From contig NZ_FQUP01000005.1 in the NCBI RefSeq assembly GCF_900129325.1, positions 164,953 to 228,952 of the forward strand: a DNA stretch of 64,000 nt, written 5' to 3'. Of the stretch, positions 48,898 to 63,073 are shown piece after piece (the stretch's first letter is position 1; each line of letters opens with the position of its first letter). The DNA comes from Kaistia soli DSM 19436 (GTDB lineage Bacteria; Pseudomonadota; Alphaproteobacteria; Rhizobiales; Kaistiaceae). Made by a program: the position numbers and the translations under genes. Below the pieces are notes generated by a model. The model worked only from the letters and a program-made list of their open reading frames with translations, was not told the origin of the DNA and did not search any database.

Positions 48898-49940
48898 GCT
48901 GGCTCTCGCGGAAACCGGTCGGGATGAATAAGCGCGCCGCTGGCTGCCGAGAGATAGGCCGCCTCGAGCAGTGCATAGGTCGCAAGGCTGTCGCGACCGG
49001 AGGTCGCCGGCTCGATGCCGCGCCGTAGGCTGTCGATGAAATGGCGCTGGGTATGGACGACGCTGTCCTGGATCTGGGTCCAAGGCTCGCTGGTCCAGCC
49101 GCGACAGTCGTGAGGAACGGCGATGGTCCGGGTCGCGCCATTCGCATGCAGGGTCAGGGTTCCGCCGGCGCCGATGATCAGTGTGCCGTCGGTTCCCTCG
49201 ATCTCGCCGAGGGTCTGCGGGAACGGATCTGGATCGCGCTTGGTGGCGTAGCTGAAGTCGAGGATCGAGGTCGCGCCATTGTCGTGACCGAGCAGGACGA
49301 TGGCAGCGTCCTCGCCGGCGATGCCCGTCTTGATCTGTTGCGTCCGGCAGAAAACGCTGTTCGCCTCGCCGAACAGGAAACGCGCCAGATCGAGGAGATG
49401 GACACCAACATCCATGATGATGAAGCGTTTGACGTGAACCAGGTAGGGCTGGTTGGCATAGACGTTGATGCCGGTGCGCCAGGACAGGCGACCAAAGGTC
49501 AGTCGGCCAAGTTCGCCGCTGTCGACAATGTCGCGAACCTTGCGGAAGAGGTTCTGAAACCGAAAATCCTCATGGATCATCAACGTTACATTGGCGGCCT
49601 CGGCCGCGGCGACGATGCGCTTGCAGGCATCGAGATCCGGCGCGAAAGGCTTCTGCAGGATCACCGGCACACCATGTGCAAAGGCCAACCCGGCCAGCGG
49701 CTCATGCATTTCCATCGTCGTGGGGATGTCGACGAAGTCGAGTACCTCGGTCTCGAACAAGGCCTGGGCGCTGGTATAGACGCGTGCGATCCCGAATATT
49801 TCCGCCGCCGCCTTGGCCTTGGCGTCATCGAGATCACACACGGCGACGATCTCGACATCGTCGAACTCCGCCCAGCCATGCAGGTGGTTCTGCGCAAAGA
49901 AGCCGCAGCCGATGACGGCGCCTTTCAAGCGTGTCGTCAT
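48894..49940 (-). CDS. apsD: Gfo/Idh/MocA oxidoreductase, probable D-apiose dehydrogenase
   Basis: Gfo/Idh/MocA protein of 348 residues: N-terminal Rossmann start GAVIGCGFFAQNHLHGW, catalytic Lys97 in a QKP variant of the EKP motif, and DVGVHLLDLARFLFG with Asp177/His181. The GCGFFAQNHLHAW-type opening is what I recall of ApsD, which oxidises D-apiose to apionolactone. The next gene upstream in the operon has the size and three-part layout of D-apionate lactonase, which would open that lactone. Four-nt overlaps on both sides. Family certain; the apiose assignment is a recalled-similarity inference. Confidence 0.75.
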   Translation of the reverse strand: MTTRLKGAVIGCGFFAQNHLHGWAEFDDVEIVAVCDLDDAKAKAAAEIFGIARVYTSAQALFETEVLDFVDIPTTMEMHEPLAGLAFAHGVPVILQKPFAPDLDACKRIVAAAEAANVTLMIHEDFRFQNLFRKVRDIVDSGELGRLTFGRLSWRTGINVYANQPYLVHVKRFIIMDVGVHLLDLARFLFGEANSVFCRTQQIKTGIAGEDAAIVLLGHDNGATSILDFSYATKRDPDPFPQTLGEIEGTDGTLIIGAGGTLTLHANGATRTIAVPHDCRGWTSEPWTQIQDSVVHTQRHFIDSLRRGIEPATSGRDSLATYALLEAAYLSAASGALIHPDRFPREPA

Positions 49941-51904
49941 GGTGTCTCGCCCTCGAAAATCATGGCAACGGCGTAGGCGTCGAGCTCCAGTGTTCCACTT
50001 GCAGAAAGCGCGTTCGTGCCGCTGCGGAACGCCTCTGGTCGTGTCGCCGCGTTTTCGAAATGCGCGGCGTCGAGCGTGCGAACCCCAGCCGCGCCGAGGC
50101 CTGTCAGTCTCACCGTGACTGCACGCTCCGAGAGGTTCGCGAGCAGGAGTTGCCGATTGCCATTCAAGATCCAGCCGAGCGCCGCGATGGAGGGATGCGA
50201 GACGTCAACTGCCAGCCGCTCTTTGCCGGCGGCAGCGGCGAGATCGGCGACGACATGGAACAGCGGATAGACGCCCGTCTCCGCCGCACCGTCCCACCAT
50301 GGGCGGGCATAGGCTTGCGGGGTCGATACCAGTCCGAATGGGCCCACCGGCGCGCCGAGAGCGAGCGTATCGATGCCAAACGCTGCAACGGTAGCGGCGT
50401 AGCCGACATGCCAGGCGGCACCCAAGAGGGCGCGCTGGCGCGGATCGGCATCGGCAAGGCCGACGCGGCGATTCTGCGGATTGGGTGTCGGTCCGGGTCC
50501 ATATGGGTTGAGCCGTGCGCCGATGCCGATCGGGCCGATATGATGCGGCGCGTCGCCAGCGATCTGCCCTGCCGAACGGAGGATATGCGGCAGCGACTGC
50601 AGCGTTTCGATCACGGAGAGATCATCCGCAGCATGGACGGTCGGCGCCGTCGCATGCGTGATGAAATCGAACGTGCCCGGAGGTGGGCGCTTGCGATTGA
50701 GCTCCGTGAAGAAGGCCGGCGAGCCCCCGCCAGCCGGGATGCCCGGAAAGGACTCGCGAACTGCCTGATGGATCGCCGGCTCGTTTGGCGCGGGTGGGCG
50801 CGCCTCGCCGGGCTGAAACGACGCCTCGTCGACTTTCGGGAACACCGCGACCGACAGCGGGGTGATGCCAACTCCAGCGAGGAGCCGTGCTGCCGCGGCC
50901 ACCTCCGGGCGCGGATCGGCTTCGGCAGTGATGAGAAGCTCGAACGAGACAGGAAGGTCCGCCGCGCTAGCCAGTTTGCCCGCCGCCTCGATATCATCAG
51001 GTACGTCACCTGCCGCCGGGTCGTAGCGGAGCAGCAGGCGCGCGCCCGCAAGCAGCGCGAGTTGCGGGGCGGCGGCCAGCGATTCCGCAGCAAGACGGGC
51101 TGGCAGACCGACGGCGATGCGGGGCAGGGGCACGCCCGTTGGCGCGCCGACAGCGACTTCGGCGACTGCTGCGTCGTCCGCCGCGCCGGAAACCGCTGAG
51201 CGCTCGACATCATCCTTGATCGTGATCGTCACGGATTGCCGTGTCGGCGTACCCGCCTCGAGCCGGTAGGGATAGGGAAGGCCGATCGGACGGCTATAGG
51301 TCTTGAACGAGGCATCGGACCAGTTGCGCTGGTCTTCCATTTCGAAGACATCGCCCGCGAAACGGACTTCGACCGAGAGTCCAGGCTCCGGGGAATGCGT
51401 GATGGCGCGGATGTCGAGCAGCGGCTGGCCGGGGCTGATGGCTTCCGGCATGACAAATTCTTCCCGCCCGCCCGATGCATGCTCGACCGCAAGGCGCTGG
51501 CCGACGACGCCATCAAGGGGATGCAGCACGACGAATCCGGTGCGGTTCGTCTCGAAATCCGTCGCGGGCAGGATGGTTGCGGTGGCTTCGAGCGTTCCGT
51601 TGGTCGATGCCGCAAAGCGGATCCTGGCCGAGAGGACCGAACTGCCGTTGCGGTAATGTGCTGCGCATTCCAGCGCGAAGAAATCGTCGTCCTGCTCGAT
51701 CGTGAGGTCGGAGATTTCAGCGTCAGGCGTTCCCCATCCTGGCGTGCGGACCAGAAACGAAAGACCGCGCAGGATTTCACGGCTGTGCCAGCGAACCCAG
51801 CGCAGGGCGCCGCGATCATAGCTGGCCGAGAGCGGGCCGGCGGCGAGGGGCTGGACCGGCGGCTCAACGCTCGCCGTTCCGGTCAGAAAGATGGCGCGGC
51901 TCAT
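49937..51904 (-). CDS. apnL: Probable D-apionate lactonase
   Basis: A 655-residue cytosolic protein with no signal peptide or membrane segment. Apparent layout: N-terminal beta-rich domain (about 1-240, RWHSREILRGLSFLVR, FVVLHPLDGVVG), central TIM-barrel-like domain (about 255-560, PLRIAVGLPARLAAE... FFTELNRKRPP, FDFITHATAPTVHAADD), and C-terminal beta domain (about 575-655, LLLANLSERAVTVRLTG). This three-part form and size match the D-apionate lactonase (ApnL) family, not common lactonases. It lies between the ApsD-like gene and a ribose-type permease gene with 4-nt overlaps at both ends. Assignment is from memory of the family; a glycosidase-like function is the main alternative. Confidence 0.7.
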   Translation of the reverse strand: MSRAIFLTGTASVEPPVQPLAAGPLSASYDRGALRWVRWHSREILRGLSFLVRTPGWGTPDAEISDLTIEQDDDFFALECAAHYRNGSSVLSARIRFAASTNGTLEATATILPATDFETNRTGFVVLHPLDGVVGQRLAVEHASGGREEFVMPEAISPGQPLLDIRAITHSPEPGLSVEVRFAGDVFEMEDQRNWSDASFKTYSRPIGLPYPYRLEAGTPTRQSVTITIKDDVERSAVSGAADDAAVAEVAVGAPTGVPLPRIAVGLPARLAAESLAAAPQLALLAGARLLLRYDPAAGDVPDDIEAAGKLASAADLPVSFELLITAEADPRPEVAAAARLLAGVGITPLSVAVFPKVDEASFQPGEARPPAPNEPAIHQAVRESFPGIPAGGGSPAFFTELNRKRPPPGTFDFITHATAPTVHAADDLSVIETLQSLPHILRSAGQIAGDAPHHIGPIGIGARLNPYGPGPTPNPQNRRVGLADADPRQRALLGAAWHVGYAATVAAFGIDTLALGAPVGPFGLVSTPQAYARPWWDGAAETGVYPLFHVVADLAAAAGKERLAVDVSHPSIAALGWILNGNRQLLLANLSERAVTVRLTGLGAAGVRTLDAAHFENAATRPEAFRSGTNALSASGTLELDAYAVAMIFEGETP

Positions 51905-58016: not shown

Positions 58017-58844
58017 TCAGCCCTTGATACCGCCGCTGACGAGTCCGTTTACGATGTGCTTCTGCATCGCGATGAAGAAGACAACAACTGGGAAGAGCAC
58101 GATAACCGTCAGCGTCATGAAGGCCGGCCAGTTGATCGCAAACTGCCCTACCGCGGAATAGACCTGCAGCACCAAAGTCTTGTTGACGGGAGAACTCAGG
58201 AACACGGTCGGCGTTATGAAATCGTTCCATACCCACATCGTCTGGAAGACACCGACCGTGATCAGGATCGGCCGGATCAGCGGCAGGACGATCCGCCAGT
58301 AGATGCCAAAGGTGCCGCACCCGTCGATGCGGGCCGCCTCGATGATCTCGAACGGCACCGTGCGCATATAGCCGAGAATGAGGAAGTAACAGAAGATCGA
58401 GCCGGCGCTGTACATCACGACGAGCCCGTTCAGGCTGTCGACGAGATGAACCCGCGCCAGCATCTGGTAGAGCGGAATGAGTGTCGACTGGAACGGCACC
58501 ATGAAGGCCAGCAGCAAGGCGGCTCCGAACAGCCTGTTGAGCGCGGTGCGCCGCGTGATCATGCCATAGGCCGCCATGGAGCCGATCAGCAGCATGAGGA
58601 ACACTGATGCGCCGGTAATGTAGAGCGTGTTCAGCGCACTCCGCAGAATCGGAACGGTCCGGAACACGGAAAGGTAGTTGTCGAGGAACAGCCGAGACGG
58701 CAGGCCGAAAGGTGAATTGCCGGCTACCTGCTGCGTTTTCAACGTGTTGACGATGATATAGTAGAAGGGCAAGCCCATGATGACCGCGAGCGCGATCATG
58801 GTGATGCTGAGCAGGGCCAACATCTTGCTGTTCTGGCGGTGCAT
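58017..58844 (-). CDS. CUT1 sugar ABC transporter permease (MalG/UgpE type)
   Basis: Permease of 275 residues with six hydrophobic segments, GLPFYYIIVNTLKT near the start, and the EAA loop EIIEAARIDGCGTFGIYWRIVLPLIRPIL. It starts immediately before the stop of the partner permease gene (no gap). In most CUT1 operons an ATPase gene follows here; instead there is the transposase scrap. Confidence 0.92.
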   Translation of the reverse strand: MHRQNSKMLALLSITMIALAVIMGLPFYYIIVNTLKTQQVAGNSPFGLPSRLFLDNYLSVFRTVPILRSALNTLYITGASVFLMLLIGSMAAYGMITRRTALNRLFGAALLLAFMVPFQSTLIPLYQMLARVHLVDSLNGLVVMYSAGSIFCYFLILGYMRTVPFEIIEAARIDGCGTFGIYWRIVLPLIRPILITVGVFQTMWVWNDFITPTVFLSSPVNKTLVLQVYSAVGQFAINWPAFMTLTVIVLFPVVVFFIAMQKHIVNGLVSGGIKG

Positions 58845-59792
58845 CTAAAGGCGCCTTTCAAGACGGCGTGAGATCGCGAACTGCGCGACGACCACGGCCA
58901 GCACCAGCAGCATGAAAACGACAGCGAGCGCCGAGGCCTCGCCGAACTTCGCTTCTCCCAGTCCCCGGCGGATGATCACTTGCGACAGCGTTGTCGTCGC
59001 ATAGCCAGGGCCGCCTTTGGTCAGCGTATAGGGCAGGTCGAACACCTTGAGCCCGCCGGTGAGCAGCAGCATCTGACTTACCGTGACGGCCGGCGCGAGG
59101 AGCGGCAGCGTCAGATGAAAAAAACGCTGCCGCGCATTGGCGCCATCGATCGCCGCCGCCTCGTAGAAATCGCTTGGGATCGATTGCAGATAGGCGAGAT
59201 AGAGGATCGCGTGCCAGCCGGTTTGCCCCCAGACGGAGACCAGCACCGTGGAAAGTCGCGCGAGCATCGGATCGGAGAGCCAGGGCACTGACCCAAGACC
59301 GACGAGCCCAATCACGGTGTTGACGGCGCCCGATGGCAGCGGCGACAGGATGAAGGACCAGACGAGGCCGAGCACGGCGATGCTGGGGATGGCGGGGAAG
59401 AAGAAAACCGCGCGGACGGCGTTACGTCCAAGGAAGTGCTGGTTCAGCGCGATGGCGAGCGGGATGGCAAGCGCCGTCACTACGATCGTCGTGGAGACGG
59501 CATAGAAGAAAGTGTAGCCGAGCGAGGCGATCATCGAGGGATCGGTGAATGCGCGGACGTAGTTTTTGATGCCGACGAAGCGCAGCGCACGCGAGTAGCC
59601 GTTGAAATCCGTAAGGCTGTACCAGAGCGTCTGGCCGAGCGGGATCAGGAAAAGTGCGAGGAAGACCACTGCGATCGGAAGCAGAAAGACCTGCCTCGCC
59701 ATGGCCTCGCGCCACCAGTGGCGAAGTGTCTGCATGCGTGGGACGGTTCCAGGCAGCGCGACGCCGACGATCACATTTCTGTCGATGTTCAC
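58845..59792 (-). CDS. CUT1 sugar ABC transporter permease (MalF/UgpA type)
   Basis: Permease of 315 residues; GTG start at 59792 chosen for GGAG 6 nt upstream (GTG at 59804 and ATG at 59735 are alternatives). Six membrane segments (FLLPIAVVFLALFLIPLGQTLWYSL first), EAA loop DFYEAAAIDGANARQRFFHLTLPLLAPAV, and the typical YTLTKGGPGYATTTLSQVIIRRGL stretch. Seventy-one nt after the binding-protein gene. Forms the channel with the next gene's product. Confidence 0.9.
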   Translation of the reverse strand: MNIDRNVIVGVALPGTVPRMQTLRHWWREAMARQVFLLPIAVVFLALFLIPLGQTLWYSLTDFNGYSRALRFVGIKNYVRAFTDPSMIASLGYTFFYAVSTTIVVTALAIPLAIALNQHFLGRNAVRAVFFFPAIPSIAVLGLVWSFILSPLPSGAVNTVIGLVGLGSVPWLSDPMLARLSTVLVSVWGQTGWHAILYLAYLQSIPSDFYEAAAIDGANARQRFFHLTLPLLAPAVTVSQMLLLTGGLKVFDLPYTLTKGGPGYATTTLSQVIIRRGLGEAKFGEASALAVVFMLLVLAVVVAQFAISRRLERRL

Positions 59793-59863
59793 TGTGAACT
59801 CCACTAAGGGCGGGGCGGCCGTGGGAGGAGTGGCGGCCGCCCCGCTTCAGCCCGTTCGCGCGT

Positions 59864-61126
59864 CTACTGACTGTCGGCCAGCTTTGCGTCGAGGGCCTTG
59901 CCTACGTCGGCCGGCTTTATGCCGCCGGCGACCATGTTCTGGATCTGCGCCACCATCTCGGTGTGGAGCGCGTCTTGCGCGCGTGGCCAGGATGTCATCG
60001 GCAGATAGATCCGGCTCGCCTCGATACCGGCATAAATCGCGGCGAGTGCGGGATCGAGGTCGGGCTTGTAGTCCGCGGTCGTGGTGATCGCGCCGGAGGA
60101 CTTGTGATAGAGTTTCACGGCCTCTGGCGAAGCCAAGAAGGTCAGGAAGGCTTCAGCCTGCTGCAAATGCTCGGTCGCCGAATTGATGGCATAGCCCGGC
60201 GATGGAGCGCCGGACAGGAAGCTCTCCCCGGACACCGGGCCAGGCACTGCCATGAAGTTCATCTCGATCTGCGGATTGATGCCGCGAATTGCTGGTAGAT
60301 TCCAAGGTCCCGCGCCCATCATCGCGACCTTACTAGTCGCAAATTCATTGACGATCTGATCGTCAGACAGACCAAGAACATCGCGACTGATCAGACCATC
60401 GTCATAAAGCTTCGCATAGAGGGACAGTGGCCCGGTCCATTCCTTCTCGAAGCTGGTCTGACCTGAGAAGATCTTCTGGTCAACATTGCCGCCTTCCTTG
60501 GAGAAGGCGAGGCCAATAAGGGCATAGAGCGGCATGAGGTTGCCGCTCTGCACACCGTCGTAATAGGGCGTGATGCCAGCGTCCTTCAGCTTTTTCGCAA
60601 GGGCGAGGAACTCGTCCCAGCTCTTCGGCGGTTCAGTCATGCCGACCTTGTCGGTCAGCGCCTTGTTGTAGAGAATTCCGCCGCCCCACGAGGCGAGCGA
60701 GAGGCCATAGGCCTTGCCGTCCGCGCCATAGGCGGCGCGGTTCTGCGGGTTCATCGTCTTGATGAAATCGTAGCCCGAGAGATCCTTGACGAAGCCGCCA
60801 TCAATCAGCGCGTTCTTGTTTTCGGCGGCGATGATGAAGACGTCCGCAGCCGTGTTGGAGAGGAGCCGCGTCTGAAGCGTCTGCACATATTCATTGACCG
60901 GCGGCGCGTTGGAGAAATCGATCCTGATGTCAGGATTGGCCTCCTCGAAGGCCGCGATCACCGGCTTCATCACCTGCTCGTTGTCCCACGAGAAGAAGCT
61001 GAGATGGGTTGGCTCCGCAACTGCCGGGACTGCAGCGAGCAGGCTGCCCGCGATCAGCATGGTCGCGGCCGCCATCCGCCGAAGACCGCGGCTGTGCCCT
61101 TGGTGTGTGCAATCTTTGCCGATCAT
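59864..61126 (-). CDS. CUT1 sugar-binding protein
   Basis: Extracellular solute-binding protein family 1, 420 residues from the ATG at 61126 (GGGGAGGA 8 nt upstream), with a Sec signal (GLRRMAAATMLIAGSLLAAVPAVA, cleavage before EPTH). Mature part: LSFFSWDNEQVMKPVIAAFEEANPDI, ADVFIIAAENKNALIDGGFVKDLS, YGLSLASWGGGILYNKAL, KSWDEFLALAKKLKDAG, APSPGYAINSATEHLQQAEAFLTFL. Probably binds an oligosaccharide or glycoside. Divergent from the GH43-GntR fusion gene, which is the obvious regulator and hydrolase candidate. Confidence 0.92.
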   Translation of the reverse strand: MIGKDCTHQGHSRGLRRMAAATMLIAGSLLAAVPAVAEPTHLSFFSWDNEQVMKPVIAAFEEANPDIRIDFSNAPPVNEYVQTLQTRLLSNTAADVFIIAAENKNALIDGGFVKDLSGYDFIKTMNPQNRAAYGADGKAYGLSLASWGGGILYNKALTDKVGMTEPPKSWDEFLALAKKLKDAGITPYYDGVQSGNLMPLYALIGLAFSKEGGNVDQKIFSGQTSFEKEWTGPLSLYAKLYDDGLISRDVLGLSDDQIVNEFATSKVAMMGAGPWNLPAIRGINPQIEMNFMAVPGPVSGESFLSGAPSPGYAINSATEHLQQAEAFLTFLASPEAVKLYHKSSGAITTTADYKPDLDPALAAIYAGIEASRIYLPMTSWPRAQDALHTEMVAQIQNMVAGGIKPADVGKALDAKLADSQ

Positions 61127-61209
61127 CGAATCATTCCTCCCCTTCATGGTCTTGATGCAGCGAACCCTCCAGTTCGCCACAGGAGGGGCCGCGAACGGTC
61201 CCGCCATTC

Positions 61210-61259
61210 ATCCGAATAAACAAAATAATGCTCCGTTGACAAGTCTCTATTTATCCGAA
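61210..61259. promoter_or_regulatory. ATCCGAA direct repeat in the importer/fusion divergent region
   Basis: ATCCGAA at 61210-61216 and 61253-61259, 43 bp (about four turns) apart, with a TTGACA at 61236-61241 on the plus strand and TTGTCA on the minus strand in between. The region is AT-rich and lies between two divergent start codons, so it is the shared promoter area. Candidate site for the fusion regulator; weak. Confidence 0.35.
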
Positions 61260-61336
61260 CATTTGGCTTGTGTCCGCGCCGCGGGGTCCAGTTTATGGAT
61301 CGTCGTCGGCGGTCTTGCCCGTGAGGAGATGCCCGA

Positions 61337-63073
61337 TTGTCCGCGCCGATTTTCGCCGACCCCGTTCTCGACGGAGCGGCCGACCCGACCGTTATCCGTC
61401 GCCGCGGCACGAACGAGTGGTGGATGTTCTACACAAACCGGCGTGCCACCTTCGAAGGGCCGGGCGTCGCCTGGGTGCATGGCAGTCCGATCGGCATCGC
61501 CGTATCGAGCGATGGCGGCCGCAGCTGGCACTATCGCGGTACGGTGCAGGGGCTCGACGATCCCGCCGACCCCGGCCTCAATACGCATTGGGCACCGGAA
61601 GTGATCTTCGCCGAAGGCGAATATCACATGTATCTCTCTTATATTTCCGGCACGCCCGACCGCTGGCCCGGCCACAAACGCCAGATTGTGCATTTCGTCA
61701 GCGATGATCTCATGAGCTGGCGGCGCATCGGCCCGATCGCGCTTAGTTCGGACTACGTGATTGACGCTGCCGTCGCGCGCTGCCCGGACGGGCTCTATCG
61801 CCTCTGGTACAAGGACGAGGGCAACGGCTCGGGCACGGGTGTCGCGGCGAGCCCCGATCTTTATGAATGGACGGTTGAGGGCGTCGCCATCCCGCCGGCA
61901 CCCGGTCACGAGGGACCGAATGTGTTCGCCCTCGGCGGTTGGTATTGGATGATCGTCGACGAATGGCGGGGCCTCGCCGCCTTCCGGTCATCCGATGCGC
62001 GCGCCTGGGACCGTCAGGGCCTCATCCTCGACCGGCCCGGCTCCGATCCGCTCGACCGCCAGATTGGACGCCATGCCGACGTTGTCCCGCTCGGTGACCG
62101 GGCCGCGATCTATTACTTCACGCACCCGCACTGGTCGGCGGCGCACACGGCAGAGGCAGTCACCTTCTCTGACCGGCGCACCGTGATCCATGCGGCGACG
62201 CTGACCGTCGAGAACGACCGGCTTGTCTGTCGCCGCGACCAGTCACCCGAGCCGCTCGGCGGCGGCGATGCCGGTGAAGATGACGCCATGGCCGCTACGG
62301 CTGTCGCGCCGTCATCGACGACCCGGGATGGGTCGTCCGGCGGCATGAAGGCTGCCCTCGGGCGGCCTCGTGTGCATGCCGGCATGCTCGAAACCCTGGT
62401 CGGGCGGATCCTCGGCGGTATCTACCGGGAGGGCGAGCCCTTGCCGGCGGAATCCGTACTCTGTACCGAGCTCGAGGTCAGCCACAGCGCATTGCGCGAA
62501 GCGCTGCGGGTGCTTTCTGGCAAAGGAATCGTAAAGGCGCGGCCGCGCCTCGGCACCATCGTGCAGCCGCGGCGCAACTGGTCTGTGGTCGACGCGCAGC
62601 TTATCGACTGGATGGTCGCAGCCGATCATGCCGACGCACTCCTCGCCGACCTCATTGCCGCCCGCCTCTGGCTGGAGCCGGCGGCGGCGGCGATGGCGGC
62701 TGGTGCCGCAACCGGCGCCGATCTCGCTGCGTTGGAGGCGGCGCTTGCGGAGATGTCGGCCGCCGCGCGGCTCGATGATATCAAGGCTTATGTGGCGGCG
62801 GATGCCGGTTTTCATCGTGCGTTGATGAAGGCGAGCGGCAACCGGATATTCGAGCAACTGGCCGCCGTCATCACGCCGACAGACGGTTATTGCCTCCGCG
62901 TCAATGCTCTGCGTGGAATTCGTCCGCGCGAGGCGGTGAAACTGCACGAGCGACTCGTCGACAGTATTCGTCTTCGTGATCCCGAAGCTGCCACGGCGAT
63001 TGCCGCTTCGCTTCTGGCCGATGTCAGCGCCTCGCGCGTCCGGCGGGCCGTGGGCGCTACTGTCGGTGCATGA
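61337..63073 (+). CDS. GH43-like glycosidase fused to a GntR/FCD regulator
   Basis: One open frame of 578 residues with two unlike halves. Residues 1-300 read as a five-bladed beta-propeller glycosidase of GH43 clan type: ADPTVI (Asp16), HWAPEVI, VIDAAV (Asp143) and EGPNVF (Glu192) match the DP, ID and EGP catalytic positions; there is no signal peptide. A linker of about 40 residues (Gly, Asp, Ala, Ser rich) leads to a GntR HTH (GRILGGIYREGEPLPAESVL, LEVSHSALREALRVLSGKGIV; about 350-412) and an FCD ligand domain with DAGFHRALMKASGN and LHERLVDSI. A possible internal start is Met318 (62288), preceded by GGTGAAG, so two proteins could also be made. Divergent from the CUT1 importer. Confidence 0.8.
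   Translation: MSAPIFADPVLDGAADPTVIRRRGTNEWWMFYTNRRATFEGPGVAWVHGSPIGIAVSSDGGRSWHYRGTVQGLDDPADPGLNTHWAPEVIFAEGEYHMYLSYISGTPDRWPGHKRQIVHFVSDDLMSWRRIGPIALSSDYVIDAAVARCPDGLYRLWYKDEGNGSGTGVAASPDLYEWTVEGVAIPPAPGHEGPNVFALGGWYWMIVDEWRGLAAFRSSDARAWDRQGLILDRPGSDPLDRQIGRHADVVPLGDRAAIYYFTHPHWSAAHTAEAVTFSDRRTVIHAATLTVENDRLVCRRDQSPEPLGGGDAGEDDAMAATAVAPSSTTRDGSSGGMKAALGRPRVHAGMLETLVGRILGGIYREGEPLPAESVLCTELEVSHSALREALRVLSGKGIVKARPRLGTIVQPRRNWSVVDAQLIDWMVAADHADALLADLIAARLWLEPAAAAMAAGAATGADLAALEAALAEMSAAARLDDIKAYVAADAGFHRALMKASGNRIFEQLAAVITPTDGYCLRVNALRGIRPREAVKLHERLVDSIRLRDPEAATAIAASLLADVSASRVRRAVGATVGA

Follow-up and report, generated by a model that had tools for sequence, protein, structure and literature searches.

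A single open reading frame of Kaistia soli DSM 19436 encodes a glycosidase of the GH159 type followed, in the same chain, by a complete GntR/FCD transcription regulator, and we give about an even chance to the reading that this conserved chain is both a hydrolase and a FadR-type repressor of its own gene and of the divergently transcribed sugar importer beside it. The frame runs uninterrupted on the + strand from a TTG at 61337 to a TGA at 63073 (578 aa) of the window, by which we mean the whole stretch of 64,000 nucleotides that was analyzed (G000:C10:164953-228952 of a 5.23 Mb genome). The window lies at a contig end, and the known DNA 3' of the fusion gene amounts to 927 bases. An earlier note on this DNA had observed a glycosidase and a GntR/FCD regulator in one open frame, which the 578-aa frame and the same join in relatives confirm; of its wider interpretation, the single chain, the catalytic set, the GntR and FCD domains, the divergent importer and the rarity of the arrangement hold up, whereas the assignment to GH43 and a suggested frameshift do not. 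The frame, the conservation of the fusion, the catalytic residues, the domains, the metal site and the order of the genes are read from the sequence, and a propeller, a helical regulator module and a disordered linker are predicted. The features of the locus are:

61325..61339, + strand: ribosome-binding sequence GGAG (GAGGAG, 8 bases 5' of the TTG) and the TTG at which the fusion starts
61337..62239, + strand: residues 1-301, a GH159-type glycosidase domain with a predicted five-bladed propeller fold
62240..62380, + strand: linker, residues 302-348
62396..62563, + strand: GntR winged-helix DNA-binding domain, residues 354-409 (PF00392)
62648..63019, + strand: FCD ligand domain, residues 438-561, with a DgoR-type metal triad (D489, H493, H537)
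61127..61336, no strand: intergenic stretch between the divergent units, given a binding-protein start at Met28; expected place of the operator
59864..61207, - strand: sugar-binding protein, presumably CUT1-type, of the divergent importer, probably starting at 61126
58845..59804, - strand: importer permease A (BPD_transp_1)
58017..58844, - strand: importer permease B (BPD_transp_1)

The N-terminal half had been described as a GH43-like glycosidase. A glycosidase domain is indeed predicted there, and its family is GH159: the GH43 model of Pfam (PF04616) is borderline, with 30.8 bits on the whole chain and 32.6 bits on the half alone against a cut-off of 32.2, whereas the match to Ch_Gaf159A of Caldicellulosiruptor hydrothermalis (PDB 7ZEI, PMC9278983) is far better (phmmer E 6.6e-82 across residues 3-302, with 46-47% of some 305 residues identical), so that the GH43 assignment gives way to GH159. 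A comparison of the two proteins showed that: 1) D16, D143, E192 and H246 of the fusion align with D19, D142, E190 and H244 of Ch_Gaf159A, in which every alanine mutant of D19, D142 and E190 is inactive (PMC9278983); the catalytic set D16, D143 and E192 that the earlier note had picked out is real. 2) The three catalytic residues, together with H246 of the metal site, are kept in all nine full-length fusions described below. 3) The model of the N-terminal half, as had been expected of it, is a five-bladed propeller and matches the fold of 7zei; this fold comparison mainly covered residues 1-344, and the regulator half was assessed by sequence. Ch_Gaf159A shares the fold, the catalytic residues and the metal-site histidine with the N-terminal half, and differs in being a free-standing chain of 318 residues without the regulator that the Kaistia soli protein carries. 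GH159 is a family marked by the hydrolysis of beta-D-galactofuranosides (and alpha-L-arabinofuranosides), and the N-terminal domain is likely to release a furanose, for instance beta-D-galactofuranose, from an oligosaccharide that has been imported.

The C-terminal half contains a complete GntR HTH and FCD domain, as had been claimed, both far over the Pfam cut-offs (PF00392, 49.2 bits against 27; PF07729, 84.3 bits against 24.3) and in the order of an N-terminal winged helix and then FCD, which is the layout of the FadR subfamily of the GntR superfamily. The match of the PdxR model is confined to the HTH of the fusion and stays under the cut-off of that model. The best solved sequence relative of this half is 7c7e (E 2.8e-29), which the excerpted text of PMC7674646 describes as E. 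coli DgoR, the D-galactonate repressor, with a metal site formed by D146, H150 and H195 where the other FCD domains compared have three histidines, and with a DNA complex that is loosened by galactonate and metal. D489, H493 and H537, which match this DgoR triad, are present in 10/10 fusions, and the position of the fourth histidine is Leu559 here and Leu, Ile or Val throughout the ten. Since 20 of 31 aligned stand-alone regulators share the Asp-His-His triad, it marks a wider group. The mapping of galactonate contacts covered R102, Q173, R179, W181 and T191 of DgoR, with D184, S221 and R224 unmapped. R102, whose counterpart is R443, is the only one kept of these five, and it is conserved in 9/9 fusions in one alignment and in 9/10 in another, where P0008 aligns a glycine; Q173, R179, W181 and T191 are replaced by D516, V522, A524 and A533, respectively. 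Thus, the fusion and DgoR (PDB 7C7E, PMC7674646, as excerpted) have in common the domain order, the triad without a fourth histidine and R102, whereas DgoR is free-standing and its other four contacts are absent from the fusion. This loss of ligand contacts rules out identity with DgoR, and because only R102 of the five mapped contacts has a counterpart, the FCD domain probably binds a different sugar acid, or a sugar, and not galactonate itself.

With the whole chain as query, a protein search recovered 353 matches at E<=0.001, of which the best 120 were examined. The matches listed include nine full-length fusions, namely the Kaistia soli protein (P0001) and eight others (P0002-P0009), with lengths of 572-583 aa and 64-88% identity to P0001, so the check for the same fusion in other genomes that the earlier note had proposed gave a positive answer. 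A further protein of 450 aa, P0010, is a fusion without its N-terminus, and its longest contig has 2313 bases; P0016 (379 aa, longest contig 91 kb) appears to be frame-broken at several places. Among the best 120 of the 353 matches the GntR domain is confined to P0001-P0010 and P0016; in two long matches, P0036 (529 aa) and P0118 (525 aa), neither a GntR nor an FCD domain was found, and a profile search found no further full-length fusion among the best 120 of its 287 matches. It had been reasoned that homologues always split at about residue 317 would speak against a genuine fusion; the opposite is seen in the nearest relatives, and the remaining matches listed lack the GntR domain. Trees were built from 54 GH halves (44 of them chosen stand-alone rows) and 41 regulator halves (31 chosen stand-alone rows) taken from the matches listed; the frame-broken P0016 and P0036 were left out of the trees and their alignment, and midpoint rooting served for display only. 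The ten fusion rows fall on one side of a single branch in both trees (support 98/90 for the GH half and 100/100 for the regulator half), and the subgroups (1,2)+3, 4+8, 5+6 and 7+9 are recovered in both, whereas the deeper order of the subgroups differs between the trees and is weakly supported in that of the regulator. The regulator tree, with its long branches and unsettled bootstrap, backs the grouping of the fusions and not the choice of a nearest free regulator. The nearest non-fusion rows of the GH tree, P0011 and P0012, appear to be stand-alone, the former on a 1379-base contig and hence possibly cut. The simplest reading of these sequences is that one fusion event was followed by shared descent, vertical or horizontal.

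The earlier note had also held that such fusions are rare, and this is borne out in the genomes searched. At E<=1e-60 we found matches in 4 of 28 genomes of the family and in 16 of 397 genomes drawn from the order, and 3 of 385 genomes drawn from the class were matched; in each of these overlapping sets, the last two with at most three candidates scored per genome, the fusion itself was confined to the Kaistia soli genome, which is included in the counts. A set of 61 relatives gave matches in 51 at E<=0.001, most of which fall in the regulator half; among the matches listed no other spans both halves, and the one in G013, which extends to residue 343, does so only across two stops, the regulator half being absent from its short locus as searched. 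On named genome contigs, a set from which records close to the genome of the window may be absent, 24 loci match residues 1 to at most 338, and the regulator half has no match in any of them. Among plasmids, 305 records were matched and none covers more than 80% of the query.

Opposite the fusion lie genes for a sugar-binding protein and two permeases, so that the divergent sugar importer of the earlier note is present; we take it to be CUT1-type from the families of its proteins. The NCBIfam matches of the importer genes are all below cut-off, and no ATPase gene immediately adjoins them. The longest reading frame of the binding protein is probably overlong: Met28 (61126) has the better ribosome-binding sequence, GGGGAGGA upstream, and by eye opens a signal-peptide-like stretch, and with this start the gap between the divergent units is 210 bases. 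According to the excerpted text of PMC4494728, FadR-type regulators are frequently found in divergent pairs of this sort and the sites of DgoR are GT-N3-AC. No operator of the form TNGTN3ACNA was found in the shared intergenic stretch with one mismatch allowed; the nearest exact match (60981-60991) lies within the binding-protein gene, and the window contains 95 matches against a shuffle mean of 131, fewer than by chance. The best intergenic palindrome is unremarkable, being equalled in 41 of 300 shuffles, and no RNA family reached its gathering score. The importer binding protein, sought at E<=1e-80 in the 397 order genomes that had been searched for the fusion (E<=1e-60), occurs in that of Kaistia soli only. 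Both the fusion and the importer are thus accessory, and they co-occur, in a sample of one; the link between them comes from this one genome. A DDE transposase fragment (PF13586; 57683-57976, + strand) is situated between an importer permease and an SDR gene, and is hence a hint of a rearranged or acquired locus. Elsewhere in the window an ORF of 655 aa without a Pfam match (49937-51904, - strand) lies between sugar ABC genes, recognized by eye, and a GFO_IDH_MocA oxidoreductase.

If the chain is both hydrolase and repressor, a scheme in which the enzyme activity, the ligand, the operator and the control of the importer are what we infer, the divergent importer would bring an oligosaccharide into the cell and the N-terminal domain would free a furanosyl sugar from it in the cytosol. 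The freed sugar, or an acid derived from it (of the galactonate class, though probably not galactonate), would bind at the metal of the FCD domain, and the ligand-bound repressor would quit the shared promoter region, upon which importer and hydrolase-repressor would be made together. Because FadR-type regulators dimerise, an operator-bound dimer would carry two hydrolase domains, and the ratio of enzyme to repressor would be fixed at 1:1. Points that count against this scheme are the failure to find an operator in the intergenic stretch, the four replaced DgoR contacts, an importer link drawn from one genome, stand-alone GH159 genes of the same genus with no importer next to them, the lack of an adjoining ATPase gene and the model pTM of 0.60. 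Compared with trigger enzymes or autogenous enzyme-repressors, the protein has hydrolase and regulator domains that both appear complete. More tentatively, the glycosidase-repressor might gate itself: a hydrolase tethered to the repressor at its own operator would make the sugar that yields the FCD ligand, and the cutting of the first imported molecules would directly lift the repression of the importer.

Several other explanations of the fusion may be weighed against the same evidence. One that deserves a hearing, though we think it rather unlikely, is that the fusion couples expression only, with the two halves working independently at a kept ratio and no signal passing between them. It would agree with a linker that is poorly conserved (residues 302-344 are 17-51% identical to those of the other eight full-length fusions) and predicted to be disordered (model confidence <50 at residues 317-345), with a model pTM of 0.60, and with a regulator half that evolves faster than the hydrolase half (53% against 83% identity in P0004); yet nine full-length proteins, some as little as 64% identical, retain the join, though an operon would also fix the ratio. 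Another explanation is that the propeller is a glycoside sensor, binding at which, and not a product in the FCD domain, alters DNA binding. The presence of hydrolase and repressor within one chain and the absence of four of the five mapped DgoR contacts from the FCD domain lend it some appeal, but we regard it as improbable, in that a sensor of this kind accounts poorly for catalytic residues complete in 9/9 full-length fusions, for a disordered linker and for the FCD pocket, which seems to be under constraint because its metal triad is intact in 10/10 fusions.

We consider it doubtful, too, that the gene yields two products, a free regulator arising beside the fusion either from an internal start or by proteolysis of the linker. 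Met318, Met337 and a GTG at residue 346 are all in frame, and a disordered linker would be accessible to proteases. However, neither methionine is conserved and seven of the nine full-length fusions have no methionine in the linker, which rules out an internal ATG as the conserved start of the group and makes the start at Met318 that the earlier note had offered unlikely as a conserved feature, although GTG or TTG starts and processing may still occur; by eye, the sequence 5' of Met318 is merely GGTGAAG, and there is no clear ribosome-binding sequence 5' of Met337. The 8 further full-length fusions all begin at the same position of the chain as the Kaistia soli protein.

The earlier note had also pointed to stop codons of a neighbouring frame near 62270-62290 as the trace of a recent frameshift. 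Such stops exist, at 62275 and 62281, and are irrelevant to the coding frame, which over 61337-63073 contains a single stop, the terminal one, whereas each of the other two forward frames contains 11. The third-position G+C is 0.72-0.82 in five windows spanning residues 241-400, and with this steady composition there is no sign of a change of frame at the join. Across the full-length fusions the linker varies in length (45-48 residues over the counted span) with the frame kept. Although more distant relatives among the matches listed lack the GntR domain and P0016 appears frame-broken, the idea that two genes were joined by a mistake in sequencing or assembly, or by a recent frameshift, has next to no probability, being refuted by the eight further full-length fusions, which come from several sources and are all in frame with linkers of differing length. 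Since eight or more other proteins have the same arrangement, the join, to judge from these sequences, is no sequencing slip.

To our knowledge, enzymes doubling as transcription regulators are few. The experimentally characterised PutA unites in one chain a catabolic enzyme and an autogenous repressor of uptake and catabolic genes; its logic is the one proposed for the fusion, which has different domains and is known from sequence. In MocR/PdxR proteins a GntR-type winged helix is joined to an aminotransferase fold, so that the enzyme fold comes after the HTH and replaces the ligand domain, whereas the enzyme of the fusion comes first and is followed by a complete GntR/FCD regulator. The benzoate regulator BzdR, as excerpted in PMC3602430, consists of a DNA-binding domain, a linker and a shikimate-kinase-like domain in one chain, and resembles the fusion in having a DNA-binding domain linked to an enzyme-derived one; the enzyme domain of BzdR has lost its activity and is itself the ligand domain, whereas the fusion keeps its catalytic residues and has a separate FCD domain. 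Enzyme-regulator chains are thus already known, and what appears to be new here is a complete, apparently active glycosidase placed before a complete regulator that has a ligand domain of its own. No earlier case of a one-chain glycosidase-repressor or of a furanose catabolic switch was found in the open-licence literature searched, where galactofuranose, galactofuranosidase, ABC transporter and transcriptional regulator came together only in a review of the mycobacterial cell envelope, to go by its excerpted text. The joining of two complete and apparently working modules is unusual, and the group-wide join, the stand-alone forms of both halves and a solved and mutated enzyme relative are useful for comparison and make it testable whether regulation changes when an active catabolic enzyme is joined to a repressor. 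The fusion suggests that furanose sugars are taken up by a regulated route and, if the proposed scheme is true, one molecule would both use a sugar and govern its uptake.

Stand-alone GH159 genes without a regulator are found directly behind ABC importer genes in three of the seven loci read, namely L078, L038 (Devosia sp. Root685) and L046 (Aureimonas altamirensis), with oligo_HPY over cut-off at the first two and SBP_bac_5 at the third; in the translations of the other four, all from the genus of the window, no importer was seen by eye beside the GH159 gene. At three of the 24 named loci (L050, L052 and L060, all actinobacterial), relatives of both permeases, 24-32% identical, lie within 5 kb. 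Hence, a link between this enzyme and import exists outside the fusion, and it fits the cytosolic cutting of an imported glycoside. Given that the genome also encodes, outside the window, a 2-keto-3-deoxygalactonokinase domain (PF05035) and a UDP-galactopyranose mutase domain (PF03275; G000:C6:6055-6645), Kaistia soli may be able to use galactonate and also to make its own galactofuranose. The same genome has a stand-alone GH159 paralogue (G000:C14:162360-163289; L002, L075) that is 64% identical to the N-terminal half of the fusion. It begins 8 bases past the stop of a methyltransferase gene, and an ORF on the opposite strand nearby resembles, by eye, a site-specific recombinase.
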